DNA of 64,000 bases from Methanoculleus sp. Its GTDB lineage: Archaea > Halobacteriota > Methanomicrobia > Methanomicrobiales > Methanoculleaceae. The notes beneath the pieces were generated by a model that made no database searches, was not told the origin of the DNA, and saw nothing but the letters and a program-made list of their open reading frames with translations. The stretch covers positions 1-64,000 of the forward strand of contig JAHDQM010000043.1 in assembly GCA_018433835.1 (NCBI GenBank), written 5' to 3'. The position numbers were made by a program, and so were the translations under genes. Shown piece by piece: positions 6,307 to 15,465 of this stretch. Within the stretch, counting starts at the first letter, position 1. Each line of letters opens with the position of its first letter.

Positions 6307-8774
6307 CTACGCCGCCTCGTGCCGCCGCAGGAACTCCCGGATCTTCCGGGACTCGATCCAGCCCCGGTCGAGCTGCTTGACGATCGCGTTGATCCGCTCG
6401 ACCTGCTTTTGGATCCTCTCCGTTGCCGTCCCTTCGTCGAGCAGTGCGGCCGTGCCGAGGATCACCTGCAGCGGCTGGTGGACGTGATCGGCCAGGATCG
6501 CGAACTGTTCGATGTTCTGCTCGATCCGGTCGTATGCCTCCTGCCGGATCCTCTCAACCTGTTTGCGTTCGGTGACGTCGGAGGAGATGACCGCGAGCCG
6601 CCTGACCTGCCCGTTTGCACCCTTGATCGGGAAGAGGATATGATCAAAGATCCTCCCCTCATACTCGTCGGTCATCCTGATGGGCCTCGCCGAGGAGAAG
6701 GCCTCATCGGCCCACTTCTTCCGGGATGCGGCCAGATCGGGCGGGAAGAGGTCGTACACGCATGTTCCCCGAAGGTCTTCTATACTCCCCCCGGACCGCG
6801 CGGCCATCGTCTCGTTCAGGGCGAGGATGGTTCCTTCCCGGTCGATGAGCACCGTGGCATCGGGCGTCGCGTCCAGGAGCGCCCGGAACTGCTCTTCACT
6901 CTCCTGCAGGGCCAGCTCGGCCCGTTTGCGCTCGGTGATGTCCCGCGCCGCCGCAAAGATACCGGCCACCCGCCCCCGCCCGTCCCGGTACACGGCGGTG
7001 TTGTAGAGGACGGGTGTCATCCACCCGTCGCGGTGCCGGATCTCGAGCGGGTAGTCCCGGACTTCACCGTCCACAAAGGTCTGCCGGTATCCGGCCTGTG
7101 CCCGATCCGGATCGGTGAAATAGTCGGAGAAATCCGTGCCGATCAGTTCGTCGCGCGCATACCCGGTCGCTTTTTCGGTAGCGGCGTTCACGTCGGTGAT
7201 CCGACCCTCTGCATCGATGGTGGCGAGCGGATCGATGCTCGCCTCGATGAGACCACGGTTGTAATCTTTCGCGAGGATCAGGGCCTCTTCGGCCTGCTTG
7301 CGCTCGGTGATGTTCTCGATCATGCCGATGAGGAACTGCGGACCGCCCTCCGCGTTCCGAACGAGAGATGTCGTCAGCATTCCCCAGAGGATCCTGCCGT
7401 CTTTCCTCACGTAGCGGTTCTCCAGCCGGTAACTCTCGATCTCCCCGGCGACGAGAGACGCCGCGAGCGCCATGTCCTCCGACAGGTCTTCAGGGTAGGT
7501 GATATCGGCAAAATGCATGCTCGAGAGCTCCTCCCCCCATACCCGAGCATCTCCTGGAATGCCGGGTTGCTATCGATGATGTACCCGTCCAGCCCCACGA
7601 GAGCGATACCGATCCCGGCCCTCTCGTAGATGCCGCGGAACCACTCCTCGCTCTCCCGGAGCGCCCTCTCCGCTGCCTTCCGTTCGCGGATATCGATGCC
7701 GATGCTTACCTGGGTGTCGTCGGAGAGGCGGATGTTCGCCCAGGAACTCTCGACCCGGGATCCGTCCTTTGCCTGCAGTACTAAGTCCCTCCACCCGGGC
7801 TCAAGCGACTGCATGAACCGGCCGACCATCTCCCGGCACTCAGGGTCGGGATAGCATAACGCCATGAGATCCCCGCTGCTTGCGCCTTCCTCCGTCCAGC
7901 CCAGTATCTCGCGCAACGCGTGGTTGAACCGGAACGTCTTCAGGTTCGGATCGTAGATCGTGATCATCACCGGGATCGCGTCGACGATCTTCTGCAGCAG
8001 CTCGTGCCCATGCGCCAGTTCCCGCTCTGCCCGCTTCCGGTCGGTGATGTCGCGGGAGACCGTCAGGACCCGCTCGACCCTGCCCGAGGGGCCGGGAATC
8101 GGGACCGAGATACACTCGCTGTACTCGAAATCTCGTACTACGGTATGGCGGACCTCTCCCCGCACCGGTCTTCCGGTGGCGAAGACCTCCCTGACCTTCT
8201 CGAAGTACGGGCCCGCCCCCTCCATCGAAAACCCGAGCTCCTCCCAGGTCTTCCCCACCATCTCGTGCGGTTCCCGCCCGAGTTTATGGGCGAACTCTCT
8301 GTCCACGTAAACGTAACGGAGGTCCCGGTCCAGGATATTCACCGTCTCCGGCAGATGAGAAAGGATAGTTGCCAGCATCTCCTCCTCGCCGCCCGGCCGA
8401 AGATCCCGCAGGCGGACGAGCTGCGTGCAACCATCCTCTCCGACCCTGCCGGAGTACCAGATCCGCCGCTCGTTGCCGTCTAGAGTCCGGAGGGTGCAGG
8501 CAAGGTCGGGGAGTTCGGCGCGGTCGCGGAGCGATGCCGCGATCGCCCGTCGGCACTCCTCTTCGACGATCCGGGGCAGAAGAAACCGGCTCACGAACTC
8601 CCCGGCGTCGCTGCCGGGAAAAGCGTCCCGGTCGACCTCGAGACAATGCTGCAGTGCTCTGTTGATCCAGACGATACGGTTCTCCGGACCGACCAGAAAC
8701 ACGCCCTCGTCAAGCAGGTCGAGCATGCGCGGTGCCGGCCCGAGTTCGGCAGAAGCGCCAGAAAACGGTGTCAT
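6307..8774 (-). pseudogene. multi-PAS sensory protein, interrupted by a frameshift
   Basis: Two minus-strand frames, 8774-7407 and the frame ending at 6307, together encode one protein of about 822 residues. The break lies at the C6 run 7533-7538: the first frame reads LGYG then nonsense, while adding one G restores LGYGGEELSSMHFADIT, a normal PAS motif. About six PAS domains follow one another, separated by DITxRKxAE linkers, and the C-terminal end is a short HisKA-like helix pair (EQFAILADHVHQPLQVILG). The position of the usual phospho-accepting His is Asp, and no HATPase domain follows, so it is not an ordinary histidine kinase. The single-base loss could be real, phase-variable or a sequencing error. 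Confidence 0.8.
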
Positions 8775-8974: not shown

Positions 8975-11629
8975 ATGGATGGCTGCAACGGTTCCGTCAT
9001 GTTCCTCGGCGATAGGGATGCCGATACCGGCAGGGCCATGGGAGGGAAGGCGGCATCGCTGCACCGGATGATCCGGGCCGGCCTCCCTGTCCCGCCGGGG
9101 TTCGTTCTCGCGGCGGACTTCTTCGCGGAGTGGACGGCGGCGCTCCAAAAGACCGGCGCCTGGCAGAACCTGCTCTCAGCCGACGAAGGAGAACGGGATA
9201 CGGCAATCCGGCAGGTCGCCGCTGCGTGCGGCACGCTCGCGTTCTCGGAGCACCAGCAGGAGAGGCTGCACCGGGCGCTGGAACGGCTGCCGGGCGGACT
9301 GTACGCCGTCCGCTCGTCCGCAGCCGACGAGGACCTGGCCGGTGCCGCATCCGCGGGCATGTACCGGACACGGCTCGGGGTCGGGGAGGATACGCTGGAA
9401 TCGGCCGTACGGGACGTATATGCGTCCCGGTTCGAGCCCCGGGTCTTTGCATACCGGGAAGAGTCGGGCCTCCCGGTCCGCGATGCCGAAATCGCGGTCA
9501 TCGTCCAGAGCCTCGTGGAGAGCAGGGTGTCGGGGGTCGCCTTCTCGGCAAACCCGGAGACCAACTCTGTAGACGAAGTCGTCGTCAACGCGAACTGGGG
9601 CCTCGGCGAAAGCATCGTCTCGGGACGGGCCACGCCCGACCTGTTCGTCGTCGGGCACGAGGACGGGATCCTCGCGAAACGGCGGGGCGAAAAGCAGGTC
9701 TCGCTCTTCTTCTCACCCGAAGGCGGAATCGAGGAGCAGGCCGGCTACCGCACCGCCGAGTGGTCGCTCACCGACGAAGAGGTCTGCCGGGTGCGCGATA
9801 TGGTGCTGGAGACCGGGTCGCTCTTCGGCCATCCGATCGATGTCGAGTGGACGTTCTCCGGGGATGCCTGCTTTCTCCTGCAGGCCCGGCCGGTGACGGC
9901 GCTTCTCCCGCTTGATAAGAGACTCATCACCCCGCCCGGAGAACCCGCCCGCCTCTACATGGACGTCACCCTGATCGAGCACGGCATGCAGGGGTCTCTC
10001 ACGCCCTTCGGGTCGTCGTGGCTCGACCGGATTCTCGCGTATACGCTGGAAGAGCTCACAGGCGTTGCCGGGATCGGCAGCGACATCGAAGAAGGCCTCG
10101 GGCAGACGCTCGGCGGGAGGATCTACCTCAATATCTCGAACCTCCTCTGGCTGGAGAAGCCCTGGATGATTGCCCTGCAGTTCGAGGGGCTTGATGCATC
10201 GACGGCGGAGGTGCTGCGGAATCTCGATCCAGGGGAGTGGCAAAACCCGGAGAGACCCGGAAAGATGAAACGGATCGTCTCTTCATCGCTCTGGCGCTCA
10301 AAAGACCTGATCGGGAGAGCGGTGCTGGGTTTCCTCTTCCCCGGCCGCCTGCAGCGGCGGTATGCAGAGAGGGTTATGGCGTTTGAAGCCGCCCTTGAGG
10401 ACCTCGATGCAACAACCCCGGACCTGCAGGAGTTCTGCGAGAAGTCGGGCCGGCTGGTCGTCCGGCTCGTCAAAGAGTCTACAGGAGCAACGCTCCTCTG
10501 CTCGGAGGCCACCCGCCTGCTCCTGCGGCGGATGGTTGCGGACGAGCCCCGGGAGATCCGGATGCTGGCGGAACTGCTGGACCGGGCGCACCCGGAAAAC
10601 GTCACGACGGAGATGGGGCGCTCCATGCACCGCCTTGCGGAGCAGATCGACCCGGCGCTCTTCTCGGATCTGCCTGACCTCGCAGAACGCATAGAGCGCA
10701 AAGAGATGCCCGAACCGTTCATGGAAGCGTGGGAGAGGTTCATGAAGACCTACGGGTGCCGGGGCCCGCGTGAGATCGATCCTGCCGCGAAGGGGTATGC
10801 GGGCGACCGGCTGCTCCTCCTGGCCCAGATCAAAAACCTCCATCCGGCCGTCTGCGGGGCGATGAGCCCGGGCGAGCGGTTCCTCGAGATGCAGCGGGAC
10901 CGGGAGCGGGCGTATGCGGAGCTCTACGGCCACTTCCGGAAGCAGGGGCGCCTGAAAGCCCGGTACTTCAGGCACCTCTCCGGGGTGCTCGATACCTTCG
11001 GGGGCTTGCGTGAAGACCACAAGCACTACCTGGTCATGGTGACGGCACGCGTCCGGAAGAGAGCGCTTGAGATCGGCCGGCGCCTGGCATCCGCAGGTCG
11101 GATCGATACCGCAGAAGACGTCTTTCTCCTCGCCGTCGAGGACGTCCGCGATGCCCTTGAGAACCCCGGTGCGGACCCGGGAGATGTGGTGGAGAGGAAC
11201 CGGCCGGAATACGTGCGGGTTGAGAGATGCCGTCGTTTCCCCGCGCTCATCGATTCCCGGGGACGTATCCGGAAGCCGCCGGCAAGGGAACCGGGGCCCG
11301 GGGAACTCCCGGGCTACGGCGTCTCCGGCGGGGCGGCACGCGGCCCGGTGAAAGTGCTCCGCTACCCCGGCGAGAAGGAGATCCGTCCCGGGGAGATCCT
11401 GGTGATCGGGGCGGCAGACCCCGGGTGGACGCCGCTGTTCATCGCCGCAGGTGGCATCGTCCTCGAGGTGGGAGGGCTCCTGCAGCACGGCTCGATCATC
11501 GCCCGCGAGTACGGAAAACCCTGCGTGGTCGGCATCGAGAACGCAACCGCGATACTCTCGGACGGGCAGGTGGTGGAGGTGAACGGCAGCCTCGGGACGG
11601 TGAGGGTGGATGGGTTAAAGAAACCCTGA
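8975..11629 (+). CDS. rifampicin phosphotransferase/PEP synthase-like dikinase
   Basis: An 884-residue, three-part enzyme of the PEP-synthase/PPDK superfamily. The N-terminal ATP-grasp part (about 1-315) includes GGKAASLHRMIRAGLPVPPG, YAVRSSAADED and VEWTFSGDACFLLQARPVT. The middle 450 residues are divergent and helical. The C-terminal swivelling domain has PGWTPLFIAAGGIVLEVGG followed by LQHGSIIAREYGKP, with His838 as phospho-carrier. A classical PEP-binding TIM barrel is absent, and the size and order match rifampicin phosphotransferase (about 865 residues), which transfers the beta-phosphate of ATP to a small-molecule hydroxyl. The substrate here is unknown. The prenyl-synthase fusion follows 94 nt downstream on the same strand. 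Confidence 0.8.
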   Translation: MDGCNGSVMFLGDRDADTGRAMGGKAASLHRMIRAGLPVPPGFVLAADFFAEWTAALQKTGAWQNLLSADEGERDTAIRQVAAACGTLAFSEHQQERLHRALERLPGGLYAVRSSAADEDLAGAASAGMYRTRLGVGEDTLESAVRDVYASRFEPRVFAYREESGLPVRDAEIAVIVQSLVESRVSGVAFSANPETNSVDEVVVNANWGLGESIVSGRATPDLFVVGHEDGILAKRRGEKQVSLFFSPEGGIEEQAGYRTAEWSLTDEEVCRVRDMVLETGSLFGHPIDVEWTFSGDACFLLQARPVTALLPLDKRLITPPGEPARLYMDVTLIEHGMQGSLTPFGSSWLDRILAYTLEELTGVAGIGSDIEEGLGQTLGGRIYLNISNLLWLEKPWMIALQFEGLDASTAEVLRNLDPGEWQNPERPGKMKRIVSSSLWRSKDLIGRAVLGFLFPGRLQRRYAERVMAFEAALEDLDATTPDLQEFCEKSGRLVVRLVKESTGATLLCSEATRLLLRRMVADEPREIRMLAELLDRAHPENVTTEMGRSMHRLAEQIDPALFSDLPDLAERIERKEMPEPFMEAWERFMKTYGCRGPREIDPAAKGYAGDRLLLLAQIKNLHPAVCGAMSPGERFLEMQRDRERAYAELYGHFRKQGRLKARYFRHLSGVLDTFGGLREDHKHYLVMVTARVRKRALEIGRRLASAGRIDTAEDVFLLAVEDVRDALENPGADPGDVVERNRPEYVRVERCRRFPALIDSRGRIRKPPAREPGPGELPGYGVSGGAARGPVKVLRYPGEKEIRPGEILVIGAADPGWTPLFIAAGGIVLEVGGLLQHGSIIAREYGKPCVVGIENATAILSDGQVVEVNGSLGTVRVDGLKKP

Positions 11630-11676: not shown

Positions 11677-11683
11677 ATATATA
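11677..11683 (+). promoter_or_regulatory. TATA box upstream of the lipocalin-prenyl synthase gene
   Basis: ATATATA within CCATATATAGCG, in the 94-nt gap after the phosphotransferase gene and 40 bases before the proposed AUU start. Transcription would begin near 11706, just before the ribosome-binding site. This suggests the fusion gene has its own promoter in addition to any readthrough. Confidence 0.5.
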
Positions 11684-11708: not shown

Positions 11709-11716
11709 GGGAGGGG
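11709..11716 (+). promoter_or_regulatory. strong ribosome-binding site that favours an AUU start
   Basis: GGGAGGGG contains GGAGG at 11710-11714, 9 bases before ATT at 11724 and about 85 bases before the first conventional start codon (GTG 11802). No ATG, GTG or TTG occurs in the open frame between 11685 and 11801. The site therefore argues for initiation at ATT 11724. Confidence 0.55.
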
Positions 11717-11723
11717 AAAAGCG

Positions 11724-13919
11724 ATTACAGGACTAAACAGCGACCAGATCTTCCCTCTTCACCCATCTGTATTCAACCGCCCCGGCGACGAAAGCCGGTT
11801 CGTGAAGTGGTGGTATATCCAGGGGTTCTTCGAAGGGGCGGCCTGCCGGAGGACGAACTTTGTCGTCTGCTTCTTCTCGCTGAACCTGGCGGACGACGGC
11901 ACGCCGGGATCGATGTACCTCTGCTCTGTCGTCGACCCGGGAACGGGAGAACACGGCAAAGAGATTCTACTCGACGAAACGTCGCGTGCCTGGTACCTGG
12001 AGAGGCTCGGGGACGGCTCGGGGGAGTTCGGGATCAACAGGTGCATAGCCGAGACGATACAGAAAGAGATCGCCGAATACGGGCTTTACCGTCCCTTCTT
12101 CACTTCGGAGAACCCGATGCGGATCGCTCCGGACGGGGTGGCCTGGGAGACCGCGGCTCTCTCGTTTGGACCTTCCTCGATATCGGTATCGTTCACGGAT
12201 CCGAAAATCGGGCAACCCGTCTCCTTCCTCCTCGAACCACGGATCCCGTTCGTCGACGTCCCAACCCTGCTTCCCGACGGGAAAGGGCTCGGCATGGAGT
12301 ACGTGACCTGCCCCCGGCTCTCGCTGAAAGGCCGGTCCGGGGACGAGGAGATCGAGGGAGAGGCGTGGTTCGACTGCCAGGCAGGCGGGGATGCGTGGTT
12401 TGCGAAGAAGAACCGGGACGGGAGATCCGACCCCCTCGGCTGGGACTGGTGCGGCGTCAACCTCGACGACGGCCGGAACCTGCTCTTCATGCACCGGAAG
12501 AATATCGAGTCGGGCGAGACCGAAACGAAGTTTTGCGTCCTCTTTGAGGGAGGCGATGCGAGATACCTCCCGGATTTCGGGCTCGAACCCCTGCGGCTCT
12601 GGGAGAGTGAAAAGACCCACATCCGCTACCCGGTCGAGTGGGCGTTCACCGTTCCCGGGATCGGGTGCCGGCTGGTCTTTTCGCCCGATACCGATGCACA
12701 GGAGATCGAACTGATCGGGATATCGGGCGGCATCTGGGAAGGGTCGGGGCAGGTCTCCGGCGAGATCGGCGGTGCCGCAGTCTCGGGACGGGGGCAACTC
12801 GAGGTCTACGGGTGCGGCTACATCAAGAACCTCTCCGACTTCCTCGCCCGGTTCCACGAGAAGATCGACGCGGGACTGGCCGGAATGTTTCCGAAAGCCA
12901 TCGATTGCGGATGGTGCGACGCCATATTCGGCAGGCGCCAGCCGATACTGGACTGCACGCCGATGACCGAGACGGTTGCAAAGCCGGTATGGGACCTCCT
13001 CTCGCGGAACGGAAAACACTGGAGGCCGATATTCGGGTTCCTGATCGCCGAGTCGATGGGGGTTCCGATGAACGAGGAGATCGAACGGCTCTTCATCCTC
13101 ACCGAGCTCCTGCACACCTCGGCGCTCATCATCGACGACATCGAGGATCAATCGCTTCTCCGCCGGGGAGAGGAGTCCGTTCACATCCGCTACGGCACCG
13201 ACGTGGCCATCAATGCGGCAAGCACCCTGTACTTCTTCCCGCAGAGCGTCGTGGCCCGGTCCGAGGGGCTGACGGCAGAGCAGCGCTACGGAATCCTGAC
13301 GCTGATGACCGAGACATCTCTCAAAGCCCATCTCGGCCAGGCCCAGGACATCTACTGGTCGGGGAACATCTCGCGGGAGAACCTCGACCGGTGGCTGGAA
13401 AACAGCCTCGATGCACAGCTCCTGCAGATGTACTCCTACAAGACCGCTTCGGCCACCGAAGGGGTCGCCGCCCTCTCGGCGATATTCCTGGACCTGGCCG
13501 ACGAGAAGAAGGAGGCCTGCCTCTCGTTCGGCAGGGCGATGGGCATCGTCTTTCAGATCATCGACGACGTGCTGAACTTCAGCGACTCGCCGGAGTGGCG
13601 GAAGGTGCAGGGCGAGGACCTGAAGGCGGGGAAACCGACGTACGCGGTAATCCGGGCGATCGGGATGCTCGACGGCACGGAGTCGGAGAGGCTCAAGGAG
13701 ATCCTCTGCACCCCTGCGTTGCGGGAGGACGAAGCGGTCCTTGCCGAGGGGATAGCGCTGGTCAGGAAGTCCGGAGCGGTGGAGAGGTGTACGGAGGAGG
13801 CGGTGGGGATGATCGAGGAAGCCTGGAAGCAGTTCTCCGGGCACATCCCTCCCTCGCCCGCAAAACTCATGCTCCGGGTGGTCTGTGCAAACCTGATATA
13901 CATGGCATACGAGGTCTGA
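11724..13919 (+). CDS. CrtC/AttH lipocalin-like domain fused to polyprenyl synthetase
   Basis: A two-domain protein of about 731 residues. Residues about 1-365 resemble the CrtC/AttH double-lipocalin family, which hydrates isoprenoid double bonds in carotenoid pathways: RFVKWWYIQGFFEG near the start, YRPFFTSENP and GWDWCGVNLDDGRNLLF. Residues about 375-731 are a trans-prenyltransferase: GKHWRP, first Asp motif IIDDIED (about 468-474), GQAQD, second Asp motif FQIIDDVLN (about 609-617) and GEDLKAGKPT. The second motif ends in Asn where Asp is usual. The first regular start (GTG 11802) would cut into the conserved WWY motif, so ATT 11724 behind GGAGG is preferred. A bifunctional enzyme making a hydrated prenyl product is an inference; the domains may also act separately. 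Confidence 0.8.
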   Translation: MTGLNSDQIFPLHPSVFNRPGDESRFVKWWYIQGFFEGAACRRTNFVVCFFSLNLADDGTPGSMYLCSVVDPGTGEHGKEILLDETSRAWYLERLGDGSGEFGINRCIAETIQKEIAEYGLYRPFFTSENPMRIAPDGVAWETAALSFGPSSISVSFTDPKIGQPVSFLLEPRIPFVDVPTLLPDGKGLGMEYVTCPRLSLKGRSGDEEIEGEAWFDCQAGGDAWFAKKNRDGRSDPLGWDWCGVNLDDGRNLLFMHRKNIESGETETKFCVLFEGGDARYLPDFGLEPLRLWESEKTHIRYPVEWAFTVPGIGCRLVFSPDTDAQEIELIGISGGIWEGSGQVSGEIGGAAVSGRGQLEVYGCGYIKNLSDFLARFHEKIDAGLAGMFPKAIDCGWCDAIFGRRQPILDCTPMTETVAKPVWDLLSRNGKHWRPIFGFLIAESMGVPMNEEIERLFILTELLHTSALIIDDIEDQSLLRRGEESVHIRYGTDVAINAASTLYFFPQSVVARSEGLTAEQRYGILTLMTETSLKAHLGQAQDIYWSGNISRENLDRWLENSLDAQLLQMYSYKTASATEGVAALSAIFLDLADEKKEACLSFGRAMGIVFQIIDDVLNFSDSPEWRKVQGEDLKAGKPTYAVIRAIGMLDGTESERLKEILCTPALREDEAVLAEGIALVRKSGAVERCTEEAVGMIEEAWKQFSGHIPPSPAKLMLRVVCANLIYMAYEV

Positions 13920-14440: not shown

Positions 14441-14782
14441 TTACCCCTCTTCTTGGATCATCGCCTCTATCGCGTCCTCCAGGGGACCGAGTTTGGTCTG
14501 GATGATATCCCAGAGAATTGTTGGTTTCACCGCATAATAGGAGTGAACGCTGATATCACGGAGCCCGGCAATCTTTCGCCATTCGATCTCCGGGTGACGG
14601 GCGGTGGCGGTCGTGGGAATCTGTTTTGTCGCTTCCCCGATGGTAACAAACCTGAGCACAACGGCGTCGAGGCGCATGCGATCGGCCACGAGTTCCTCAA
14701 ACGTTCGGTTACCTACATAAGAGCGGATTGAGGCGATGGCGTCGCGGATATCCTCAAGATACAGCAGGAGATCTCTAGGCAT
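14441..14782 (-). CDS. hepT: HepT-like HEPN ribonuclease toxin (DUF86)
   Basis: A 113-residue DUF86/HepT protein. The start MPRDLLLYLEDIRDAIASI is typical of the family; an ATG eight codons upstream lies in non-conserved sequence. The catalytic HEPN motif RX4HXY is intact as RDISVHSY in the sequence IAGLRDISVHSYYAV. HepT proteins are RNA-cleaving or tRNA-targeting toxins kept inactive by polyadenylylation of the motif tyrosine by their MntA partner. The gene overlaps mntA (14775-15059) by 8 nt, the standard order of this toxin-antitoxin family. All key residues are present, so it should be functional. Confidence 0.88.
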   Translation of the reverse strand: MPRDLLLYLEDIRDAIASIRSYVGNRTFEELVADRMRLDAVVLRFVTIGEATKQIPTTATARHPEIEWRKIAGLRDISVHSYYAVKPTILWDIIQTKLGPLEDAIEAMIQEEG

Positions 14783-15059
14783 AAACGACCTCATCAAGGA
14801 CGGCATCCCGAATCCGGGGCTTTAAGGTGTCGGCGATGACGAGATCCGTCCTTCGCCCCAGAAGGTCTTCGAGATAGAACTTGAGGTCCATAAAGTGATC
14901 GAACGTCTCCTCTCCCTCCCGGAACTCCACCAGGATGTCGATGTCGCTTGCCGGAGTGGCCTCGTTCCGCACAACCGATCCGAAGATGCCGATACGGGCC
15001 ACGCCGTAGCGTTCCCGGAGGGTGCGCAGGTTCTGCCGGATCTGGGCGAGGGGATGCAT
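14775..15059 (-). CDS. mntA: MntA-like minimal nucleotidyltransferase antitoxin
   Basis: A 94-residue minimal nucleotidyltransferase with the motif GSX10DXD in IGIFGSVVRNEATPASDID and a third carboxylate in the DLVIADTL strand. It would transfer AMP to the tyrosine of the HepT toxin encoded directly downstream, with an 8-nt overlap. ATG 15059 gives MHPLAQIRQNLRTLRERYGV, the usual MntA beginning. The frame is open upstream into a fragment of a second toxin gene, so an N-terminally extended product cannot be excluded. A TATA-like GGTATAAGAG on its strand about 35-40 nt upstream could provide a separate promoter. Confidence 0.88.
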   Translation of the reverse strand: MHPLAQIRQNLRTLRERYGVARIGIFGSVVRNEATPASDIDILVEFREGEETFDHFMDLKFYLEDLLGRRTDLVIADTLKPRIRDAVLDEVVYA

Positions 15060-15167
15060 AGTTACTCTTGAATAATACATCCGCCCTCTTATACCCTCCG
15101 GCACCCGTTCATGCCACAACTTCTCCGCAATATCGTAGAGGTACTTCCTGCCTTCACGCGACAGCAT
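15060..15167 (-). pseudogene. remnant of a second HepT toxin gene, fused in frame to mntA
   Basis: On the minus strand, ATG at 15167 (or 15173) begins MLSREGRKYLYDIAEK, which matches the usual N-terminus of a HepT/DUF86 protein, and overlaps the end of the preceding MntA-like gene by 14-20 nt as such pairs do. After about 16 residues the resemblance stops (LWHERVPEGIRGRMYYSRVT) and the frame runs without a stop into the next mntA. The rest of the toxin, including its RX4HXY motif, is gone, which looks like a deletion between tandem copies. Confidence 0.45.
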
Positions 15168-15465
15168 AGACATCCCTGCAGGTCTCTTCCACGGACTCAC
15201 GGAAGATCGGGTTTCTGATCGCGGATAACTCCACGAGATCGACTGCGCGGCAAAAGAGCCCGGCCAGATCTCCGGCGAGACCGAAGTAAGCCGCCGCATG
15301 CTCCACCGGGGTCATCAGTTCGAACTCGACGACAAAATCGACGTCGCTTGCCGCGGGATCGAATCGGTCGCCCGTCGCCGAGCCGAAGACCCCGAGCCTT
15401 ATTACACGGCGGCGTGCAGCGATGCGGGCGGTCTCGGGGATTTTTTCGCGGATGATAGGATGCAT
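15154..15465 (-). CDS. second MntA-like nucleotidyltransferase, partner toxin lost
   Basis: A 103-residue minimal nucleotidyltransferase. The signature is GVFGSATGDRFDPAASDVDFVVEFE: relative to the usual GSX10DXD it has one extra residue before the DVD, still compatible with the fold. The C-terminal part (AVDLVELSAIRNPIFRESVEE) fits the MntA family. It lies upstream of a HepT fragment and then of an intact MntA-HepT pair on the same strand. Whether this orphan antitoxin acts on the surviving HepT is unknown. Start ATG 15465 gives MHPIIREKIPETARIAARR. Confidence 0.8.
   Translation of the reverse strand: MHPIIREKIPETARIAARRRVIRLGVFGSATGDRFDPAASDVDFVVEFELMTPVEHAAAYFGLAGDLAGLFCRAVDLVELSAIRNPIFRESVEETCRDVYAVA

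Follow-up and report, generated by a model that had tools for sequence, protein, structure and literature searches.

A single uninterrupted reading frame of Methanoculleus sp. encodes a CrtC/AttH-type lipocalin joined to a polyprenyl synthetase, and this two-domain fusion is real. The gene lies in the window, by which we mean the whole stretch of 64,000 nucleotides that was analyzed. We give an even chance to the idea that the fusion is a bifunctional terpenoid enzyme, in which an isoprenoid chain would be made by the synthetase and hydrated at its far end by the lipocalin, followed by modification by a partner. The same fusion is scattered over a few archaea and bacteria, suggesting an unexplored kind of terpenoid pathway. 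We know of no such terpenoid in archaea.

A lipocalin fused to a polyprenyl synthetase

The features of the region, all on the forward strand, are as follows.

8975 to 11629, +: conserved upstream partner, an RPH-type phosphotransferase (ATP-grasp, acceptor domain, C-terminal His swivel), from Pfam and a match to 5fbs
11710 to 11716, +: Shine-Dalgarno-like GGAGGGG before the ATT start, read in the sequence
11724 to 13919, +: fusion gene, CrtC/AttH-type lipocalin plus polyprenyl synthetase, 731 amino acids, apparent start codon ATT
11802 to 12833, +: two-barrel lipocalin half, residues 27-370, from Pfam Lipocalin_9 (residues 238-363) and fold and profile matches
12372 to 12374, +: candidate catalytic acid Asp217 (W-x-D), putative positional equivalent of RgCrtC D268; D in 15/16 and E in 1/16 fusions
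12441 to 12449, +: W240-x-W242, putative equivalent of RgCrtC W283/W285; 16/16 fusions
12936 to 13916, +: polyprenyl synthetase half, residues 405-731, PF00348 (E 5e-50)
13134 to 13148, +: first Asp-rich motif, DDIED; DDxxD in 16/16 fusions
13563 to 13577, +: second Asp-rich motif, DDVLN, last Asp replaced, from the alignment of 16 fusions

The initial annotation described a CrtC/AttH-like domain followed by a complete prenyl synthetase in one frame, and the motifs, Pfam and fold matches agree with this. All the motifs that it named are found in the frame, with KWWY (residues 28-31) and GWDWCGVNLDDG (residues 239-250) in the lipocalin half, and GKHWRP (residues 430-435), DDIED (residues 471-475) and GEDLKAGKPT in the synthetase half. 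Searching the whole protein against Pfam gave PF00348 (polyprenyl_synt) over residues 417-664, with 170.4 bits against a cut-off of 27, and PF17186 (Lipocalin_9) over residues 238-363, with E 3e-17 and 63.4 bits against a cut-off of 26.2. PF07143 (CrtC) scored 16.8 bits (E 0.012) in the window protein, below its cut-off of 22.5, and exceeded the cut-off in four of the five fusion relatives scanned (L077, L078, L035 and L038, not L079 from Nitrosomonas stercoris). The second Asp-rich motif keeps its DD and lacks the last Asp, as does that of human GGPPS; in L007 it reads NDIHC, the first Asp being replaced by N.

An AlphaFold2 model of the fusion (pLDDT 80.5, built on an alignment of 8 rows) places both halves in known folds. 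Residues 11-365 superimpose on AttH 2ich with Z 31.6 (290 residues aligned, 3.0 Å), and the synthetase half on GGPP synthase 1wy0 with Z 35.2. The best 50 matches listed by VIA are mostly prenyl synthases, with Z values of 29.6-35.2; kievitone hydratase is not among the matches listed there, but is among those of Foldseek. Profile comparison of the lipocalin half matched 2ich (E 6e-33) and kievitone hydratase 7a0q (E 2e-10). The initial annotation knew of no characterized protein of this architecture, and our search of open-access PMC text found none.

The gene appears to begin with ATT at 11724. The Shine-Dalgarno-like element is preceded by a TATA-like box at about 11677-11683, read in the sequence, and a similar layout of both occurs in L032, L033, L034, L006 and L055. 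The first start found by the ORF finder, GTG at 11802, was rejected. Codons 2-26 behave as coding sequence, with dN/dS of 0.05-0.07 in three comparisons and saturation in the fourth, and in the relative L033, of the same genus as the window, the first in-frame ATG, GTG or TTG comes only at residue 64, so that ATT fits better. Six loci seem to start with one of the codons ATT, ATC and GTT.

Both halves and the linker are under purifying selection, and invariant residues are spread over the two halves. In the same four comparisons dN/dS was 0.21-0.54 for the lipocalin half, the highest value being against L032, and 0.11-0.14 for the synthetase half; the lipocalin is therefore under the weaker constraint.

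Distribution and genomic neighbors

Fusions of intact length were found in 12/232 genomes of the order, in two Pseudomonadota genomes, and on plasmids of Streptomyces and Tolypothrix; cyanobacteria and actinomycetes were sampled through plasmids. The lipocalin half occurs in 14/232 genomes of the order, where one gene is broken, and deletion remnants are present in other genomes. PF17186 and PF07143 each matched in 0/14 control genomes. Among 142 genomes of the class of L035, which we read as Alphaproteobacteria, PF07143 matched in the two fusion carriers and in no other.

In a tree of 51 rows the synthetase halves of the fusions form a clade with the N. stercoris protein (98/93). This adjoins a branch of stand-alone archaeal synthetases of about 365 amino acids (97/95), which we read as haloarchaeal; inspection by eye of the neighbors of these synthetases in 5/32 genomes gave no clear functional link. 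The N. stercoris protein (L079) retains its synthetase; its lipocalin is eroded, and the Asp is gone. In Streptomyces NBC_01431 the synthetase stands alone, next to an ABC transporter pair of similar kind, with only about 430 bases between.

The gene upstream of the fusion in the window contains PF01326 (residues 22-309) and PF00391 (residues 804-874), with no other family above cut-off, and its best PDB sequence match is 5fbs (E 2e-72). Its dN/dS is 0.25-0.41. H838, R679, E680 and K683 are present in 9/9 RPH-type sequences aligned, that of the window included and a broken copy in L054 left out. In RPH-Lm the residues His825, Arg666, Glu667 and Lys670 are the set used on a hydroxyl, according to the part of PMC4844700 available. 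The NCBIfam model RIF_Ptrans_rph gave 314 bits against a cut-off of 999, so that the gene has the same architecture but is not rifampin phosphotransferase proper. Assignment as a PEP synthase was rejected on the domain order and the absence of a pyruvate-binding domain. An RPH-type gene lies upstream of, and adjoins, the fusion in all nine carriers of the order outside family f5. The five f5 (Methanoregula-type) carriers gave no RPH-type match at E <= 1e-100, and their neighbors (chemotaxis-like genes, or genes for exported-looking or zinc-ribbon proteins) gave no functional lead.

Elsewhere the neighbors differ. In Tolypothrix a single protein of 1509 amino acids comprises a sulfotransferase, a GT28-type glycosyltransferase, CrtC, Lipocalin_9 and the prenyl synthetase, and adjoins ABC exporter genes; exporter-type genes also lie beside the Streptomyces gene. 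Of the two Pseudomonadota fusions, that of L035, starting at ATG 9938, shares 11 bases with an overlapping gene of lycopene-cyclase type (PF18916), and that of L064 is divergent from a GGR-like reductase gene. In N. stercoris the fusion relative lies next to a gene for an FMO-like protein and one for an LCM-type methyltransferase. ORFs called in the unannotated S. clavuligerus region gave no lead.

Candidate catalytic residues and possible function

Substitution of D268, W283/W285 or W110 in RgCrtC abolishes or strongly reduces terminal hydration, W283/W285 being essential (PMC12402844, available part). From the order of the motifs, rather than by alignment with a CrtC sequence, Asp217, W240/W242 and the N-terminal W30 would be the equivalents of these residues. 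W30 is kept in 16/16 fusions, the alignment leaving out N. stercoris, and W-x-D is also present in 2ich and 7a0q in the profile alignment. The Asp and Trp positions needed by carotenoid hydratase thus appear to be kept in the fusions. Loss of either H239 or W241 also kills CrtC activity, in the available text of PMC4717167. These positions, placed using a conserved Pro and the primers printed in that paper rather than a full CrtC alignment, correspond to Y193 in 15/16 fusions and to residue 195, mostly T or S (T195 in the window), so that the essential pair appears to be replaced by Tyr and Thr/Ser.

The mechanism that we favor would run as follows. From its motifs and fold, the C-terminal half is predicted to condense IPP onto an allylic diphosphate, giving a polyprenyl diphosphate of C20 or longer. 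The far, dimethylallyl-like end of the chain would enter the cavity between the two barrels of the lipocalin, where Asp217 may protonate the terminal double bond and W30, W240 and W242 stabilize the cation. By analogy with CrtC and kievitone hydratase, this would be quenched mainly by water, giving a terminal tertiary alcohol. In Methanoculleus and its relatives the RPH-type enzyme might then transfer the beta-phosphate of ATP to a hydroxyl group; elsewhere the partner step could fall to glycosyltransferase and sulfotransferase domains, a reductase or a cyclase.

Action of the lipocalin on the chain, as the initial annotation proposed, is supported by the chemistry of CrtC and kievitone hydratase together with the terpenoid or tailoring functions encoded beside or within the fusions. 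In the portions of the papers available, many terpenes of C12-C20 are substrates of CrtC, which adds water at their terminal prenyl unit (PMC12402844), and kievitone hydratase hydrates a prenyl group (PMC5805349). Several observations count against the favored mechanism: the apparent replacement of H239/W241, the sub-threshold PF07143 score, the weaker constraint on the lipocalin, the erosion in N. stercoris, the stand-alone synthetase of NBC_01431, the f5 carriers that gave no RPH-type match, and the functionally mixed superfamily, which includes the epoxide-rearranging PenF/AsqC (PMC6013536, available part). To these is added the low turnover of free geranylgeraniol by RgCrtC, only 4%; that enzyme also failed on the monoterpenes tested, and no test on diphosphates was seen in the accessible text of PMC12402844.

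The lipocalin could instead be a non-catalytic carrier or membrane-transfer domain, holding the hydrophobic product of the synthetase for its partners. Lipocalin folds typically bind lipids, and the faster evolution of this half, its erosion in N. stercoris and the exporter-type genes in Streptomyces and Tolypothrix would all be consistent with such a role. Yet a mere carrier would not require the acid at 217 (D or E, 16/16) and the three Trp that are kept in very distant members, and we regard this explanation as unlikely.

It is also doubtful that the lipocalin is a proton-initiated cyclase, in which Asp217 would protonate a terminal double bond or epoxide and the cation would cyclize rather than be quenched by water. 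This would make it a terpene cyclase of new fold tethered to a prenyl synthase, like the fungal copalyl synthases with a prenyltransferase domain; that of PvCPS is among the PDB matches of the synthetase half. The same Asp/Trp chemistry would serve, the H239/W241 pair of true CrtC seems absent, and the FMO-like and methyltransferase genes of N. stercoris would fit, as would PenF/AsqC. CrtC has itself been compared with squalene-hopene cyclase by the authors of PMC4717167, in the part available. However, hydration of prenyl ends is what the characterized relatives, CrtC and kievitone hydratase, carry out; in L035 a separate gene of cyclase type already stands next to the fusion, and the Asp is missing from the lipocalin of N. 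stercoris. In the literature examined we met no cyclase of lipocalin fold whose substrate is a plain polyprenyl diphosphate. We know of no lipocalin fold that acts as a proton-initiated terpene cyclase. The more ambitious proposal, that such a cyclase tied to its own synthase anchors mobile terpenoid pathways in methanogen-type archaea, Pseudomonadota, cyanobacteria and streptomycetes, with RPH-type phosphorylation as the archaeal tailoring, seems rather improbable.

The initial annotation suggested a hydroxylated archaeal lipid or a quinone-like side chain; a core archaeal lipid or a respiratory quinone chain is disfavored. A conventional fusion within the pathway of some known membrane lipid or quinone, such as hydroxyarchaeol or methanophenazine-like side chains, would suit a methanogen-type host in which the sole other prenyl synthase match groups with the IdsA type, but is very unlikely given the carriage by 14/232 genomes of the order, the broken gene and deletion remnants, and the bacterial carriers that include a cyanobacterium and Streptomyces. 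Hydroxyarchaeol in Methanosarcina is, moreover, attributed to a phytoene-desaturase homologue (PMC10821996, available part); a search of the Methanoculleus lipid literature found nothing usable. The patchy distribution speaks against a core lipid, and an accessory metabolite or a special lipid is the more probable product. Finally, an error of assembly or a chance junction between two genes can be dismissed, since the same fused frame recurs in many independent assemblies, plasmid records among them, with invariant residues in both halves and purifying selection on the halves and linker.

If the bifunctional reading is correct, one protein couples the synthesis of an isoprenoid chain to chemistry at its far end, and a hydratase fold whose known members are slow or narrow on simple terpenes gains a native, self-supplied substrate. 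The predicted products, polyprenyl diphosphates hydroxylated or cyclized at the far end and then phosphorylated, glycosylated or sulfated, form a class that can be sought by mass spectrometry.

Comparison with known systems

CrtC (PF07143 plus PF17186) shares with the fusion the two-barrel lipocalin, the Asp and Trp positions and an isoprenoid chain as likely substrate. It is, however, a separate, membrane-associated protein, whereas the fusion is joined to the enzyme that makes the chain and apparently has Tyr/Thr at the H239/W241 equivalents. Kievitone hydratase (7a0q/7a0t) resembles the lipocalin half in profile and in its W-x-D and WxW, and hydrates a terminal prenyl double bond, but is a secreted fungal enzyme of single function acting on a prenylated isoflavonoid. 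AttH NE1406 (2ich), the closest solved fold for the N-terminal half among the matches listed, is titled 'putative AttH' and lacks a prenyl synthetase; to our knowledge it has no known function.

The synthetase half has the DDxxD, RRG and HxGQxxDIYW motifs of polyprenyl and GGPP synthases (PF00348), as well as their fold. The stand-alone archaeal branch differs in not being fused and in retaining the last Asp of the second Asp-rich motif. The upstream gene and RPH (5fbs) are alike in domain order and in the His, Arg, Glu and Lys set, but the upstream gene is archaeal, tied to a terpenoid gene and below the RIF_Ptrans_rph cut-off. A parallel in design is offered by the fungal bifunctional copalyl synthase PvCPS. 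There too a prenyl synthase is joined to a second enzyme, which protonates what the synthase makes, the partner having a class II cyclase fold where that of the fusion is a lipocalin.

Domain content, occurrence and origin of the fusion

The features considered in the window are as follows.
6307-8774, minus strand: sensor-like gene, by eye of PAS type, in two overlapping frames (403 and 455 aa)
8975-11629, plus strand: upstream gene of RPH type (rifampin-phosphotransferase-like), with ATP-grasp, a long middle region and a His domain at the C-terminus (Pfam)
11724-13919, plus strand: fusion gene, 731 codons open without interruption
14441-15465, minus strand, adjoining the fusion: HepT-like protein (PF01934), then small ORFs resembling nucleotidyltransferase partners by eye

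All the lipocalin and prenyl synthetase motifs listed in the initial annotation are present in the single frame of the fusion gene. Its protein passes the Pfam cut-offs for polyprenyl_synt (E = 5e-50) and Lipocalin_9 (E = 3e-17); the match to CrtC falls short of its own (E = 0.012). In an AlphaFold2 model (8-row alignment, pLDDT 80.5), the C-terminal half resembles GGPP synthase (1wy0, Z = 35.2). The N-terminal half matches AttH NE1406 (2ich; Z = 31.6, 290 residues, 3.0 Å), bearing out its proposed CrtC/AttH fold. Kievitone hydratase 7a0t was among the Foldseek matches of the fusion (E = 6e-11). A profile of eight lipocalin halves gave just two matches to PDB sequences at E < 0.1, 2ich (E = 6e-33) and kievitone hydratase 7a0q (E = 2e-10). 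One further place in the window genome, an IdsA-type prenyl synthase, matches the fusion protein; a profile search of that genome found no Lipocalin_9 match beyond the fusion.

Among 60 relatives the full-length fusion is found in G008 (94%), G028 (93%), G052 (81%) and G045 (36%); it is broken in G036, and G032 holds only a remnant. Using the lipocalin half of locus L038 as query (E ≤ 1e-10), 14 of 232 genomes of the order Methanomicrobiales were matched. Twelve have an open frame of at least 737 codons; the frames of G036 and G171 are interrupted, the G171 break adjoining unread bases. In a phylum sample, 40 of 392 genomes matched the fusion of L035 (Pseudomonadota) at E ≤ 1e-30. Seven full-length fusions and the remnant in G032 belong to the order; the 32 others match almost wholly within the synthetase half (one, G746, from residue 314 and with two stops inside). 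The fusion occurs in 2 of 385 genomes sampled from the class of L035, and in none of 398 sampled from its phylum except the centre genome itself. Another fusion of Pseudomonadota, L064, lies on a 4.6-kb contig, so contamination is possible there. Plasmids carry the fusion in Streptomyces canus (747 aa) and in two strains of Tolypothrix, whose proteins agree at every one of the 709 aa compared (full length in PCC 7601, 1509 aa); the sole annotation of the Streptomyces and Tolypothrix fusions is 'polyprenyl synthetase family protein'. The suspicion that two genes had been joined by an assembly artefact is rejected by the long frames within the order and by recurrence in archaeal relatives, bacterial genomes and plasmids.

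A synthetase tree of 51 rows (16 fusions, 8 of the 32 stand-alone phylum relatives, 24 IdsA-type enzymes and 3 others) placed the fusion halves and the protein of Nitrosomonas stercoris in one clade (98/93), adjoining the stand-alone branch (97/95) and well removed from IdsA enzymes encoded by the same archaea; several rows are on long branches, making their placement unsure. The N-terminal part of the N. stercoris protein is a weak lipocalin match that lacks the Asp of the W-x-D motif. The simplest reading of these sequences would be that the fusion arose once and later decayed in some lines.

Comparing the window with four relatives, dN/dS was 0.21-0.54 for the lipocalin half, 0.14-0.26 for the linker, 0.11-0.14 for the synthetase half and 0.25-0.41 for the upstream gene. 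The lipocalin is therefore kept, under looser constraint.

Start codon and the upstream gene

The first coding codon of the fusion is ATT in the window (11724-11726) and L032, ATC in L033 (a Methanoculleus relative) and GTT in L034, L006 and L055, an apparent non-canonical start in six loci; L006 comes from G036, where the gene is broken at a later point. No in-frame ATG, GTG or TTG lies between the upstream stop and this codon in the six loci, and in L055 a TAA stands six codons ahead of GTT. A purine-rich, Shine-Dalgarno-like site (GGAGG; GGGAGAG in L032) precedes each start by 5-9 bases. Codons 2-26 gave dN/dS of 0.05-0.07 in three comparisons, the fourth being saturated. A GTG stands at a comparable position in the g27 genus relatives, as read by eye. 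The start is possibly a low-expression device.

The upstream gene shares its domain order with rifampin phosphotransferase (PMC4844700), whereas that of PEP synthase differs. Its H838, R679, E680 and K683 correspond to RPH His825, Arg666, Glu667 and Lys670 in 9 of 9 aligned sequences, window included. It scores 314 bits, below the curated rifampin phosphotransferase cut-off of 999; therefore the mechanism alone is transferred.

At E ≤ 1e-100 the RPH-type gene occurs in 10 of 232 genomes of the order: all nine fusion carriers outside the Methanoregula-type family f5, and G037, which is without the fusion. It lies 93-125 bases from the fusion in five loci; in the window the intervening stretch includes a TATA-like box. 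L039 (9874-10674) retains roughly 60 codons from the start of the phosphotransferase plus the final part of the fusion, and L037 likewise holds only fragments of both; the pair was therefore lost together there. G036 has an intact RPH-type gene and a broken fusion; the G126 copy of the RPH-type gene has one in-frame TGA.

Contig C1 of G128 (L050-L052) carries three near-identical copies of the pair, two of them 18.7 kb apart near one end and the third near the other, reflecting either amplification or an assembly loop. The third copy has both genes in one 1861-codon frame, probably via a frame shift.

Genomic surroundings

In G037 (L103 8272-13014) two genes that resemble each other, alpha/beta-hydrolase-like by eye, come after the RPH-type gene. 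Near the pair in g27, a scan of L053 4508-8338 gave an aldehyde ferredoxin oxidoreductase, together with a methyltransferase that carries a fused D-Ala-D-Ala-ligase-type domain; L051 and L054 have similar ORFs by eye. The counterpart of the split 6307-8774 gene is one frame of ~1440 aa in L039 and L055 and of 1005 aa in L033, the split being a frame break or a sequencing error. ORFs similar to the 14441-15465 set lie near the fusion in L033.

Many of the fusion's neighbours are compatible with terpenoid tailoring or export; the product is not named by any of them. The Tolypothrix protein (L078 12097-16626, 1509 aa) itself combines sulfotransferase, GT28/EryCIII-like glycosyltransferase, CrtC, Lipocalin_9 and synthetase, and this plasmid fusion adjoins transposases and ABC exporter genes including devC. 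The S. canus fusion adjoins an ABC transporter pair, a similar pair standing beside a stand-alone synthetase in Streptomyces NBC_01431. With ATG 9938 as its start, the L035 fusion shares 11 bases with a PF18916 lycopene-cyclase-type gene; in-frame starts further upstream are also present. The L064 fusion is divergent from a GGR-like FAD reductase gene, and the N. stercoris gene is followed by FMO-like and LCM-type methyltransferase genes. Neighbours in f5 carriers give no functional lead.

Active site and comparison with known enzymes

Activity of the carotenoid hydratase RgCrtC requires D268, W110, W283 and W285 (PMC12402844), and also H239, W241 and Y266 (PMC4717167). In 16 aligned fusions, the Asp of W-x-D is kept in 15 and replaced by Glu in the Streptomyces protein; the following position varies (C, Y, H, Q, R). 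WxW and the N-terminal W30 are kept in 16/16, W30 being equated with W110 from order along the chain alone. The Y266 position is W215 in the window. Y193 (15/16) and T/S195 seem to occupy the positions of H239 and W241; this placement, based on a shared Pro and on primer sequences printed in PMC4717167, is no more than a lead. AttH 2ich has YYYSEP in the same region. The first synthetase motif, DDxxD, is present in 16/16 fusions, and the second is DDVLN in the window's group.

In the proposed mechanism, where the lipocalin would hydrate the far end of the chain made by the synthetase, hydration is the least secure step. The lipocalin Asp/Trp site could start cyclisation instead; the CrtC superfamily includes the epoxide-rearranging PenF/AsqC (PMC6013536). 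Both domains are already known; among the open-access papers searched, none describes their fusion in one protein.
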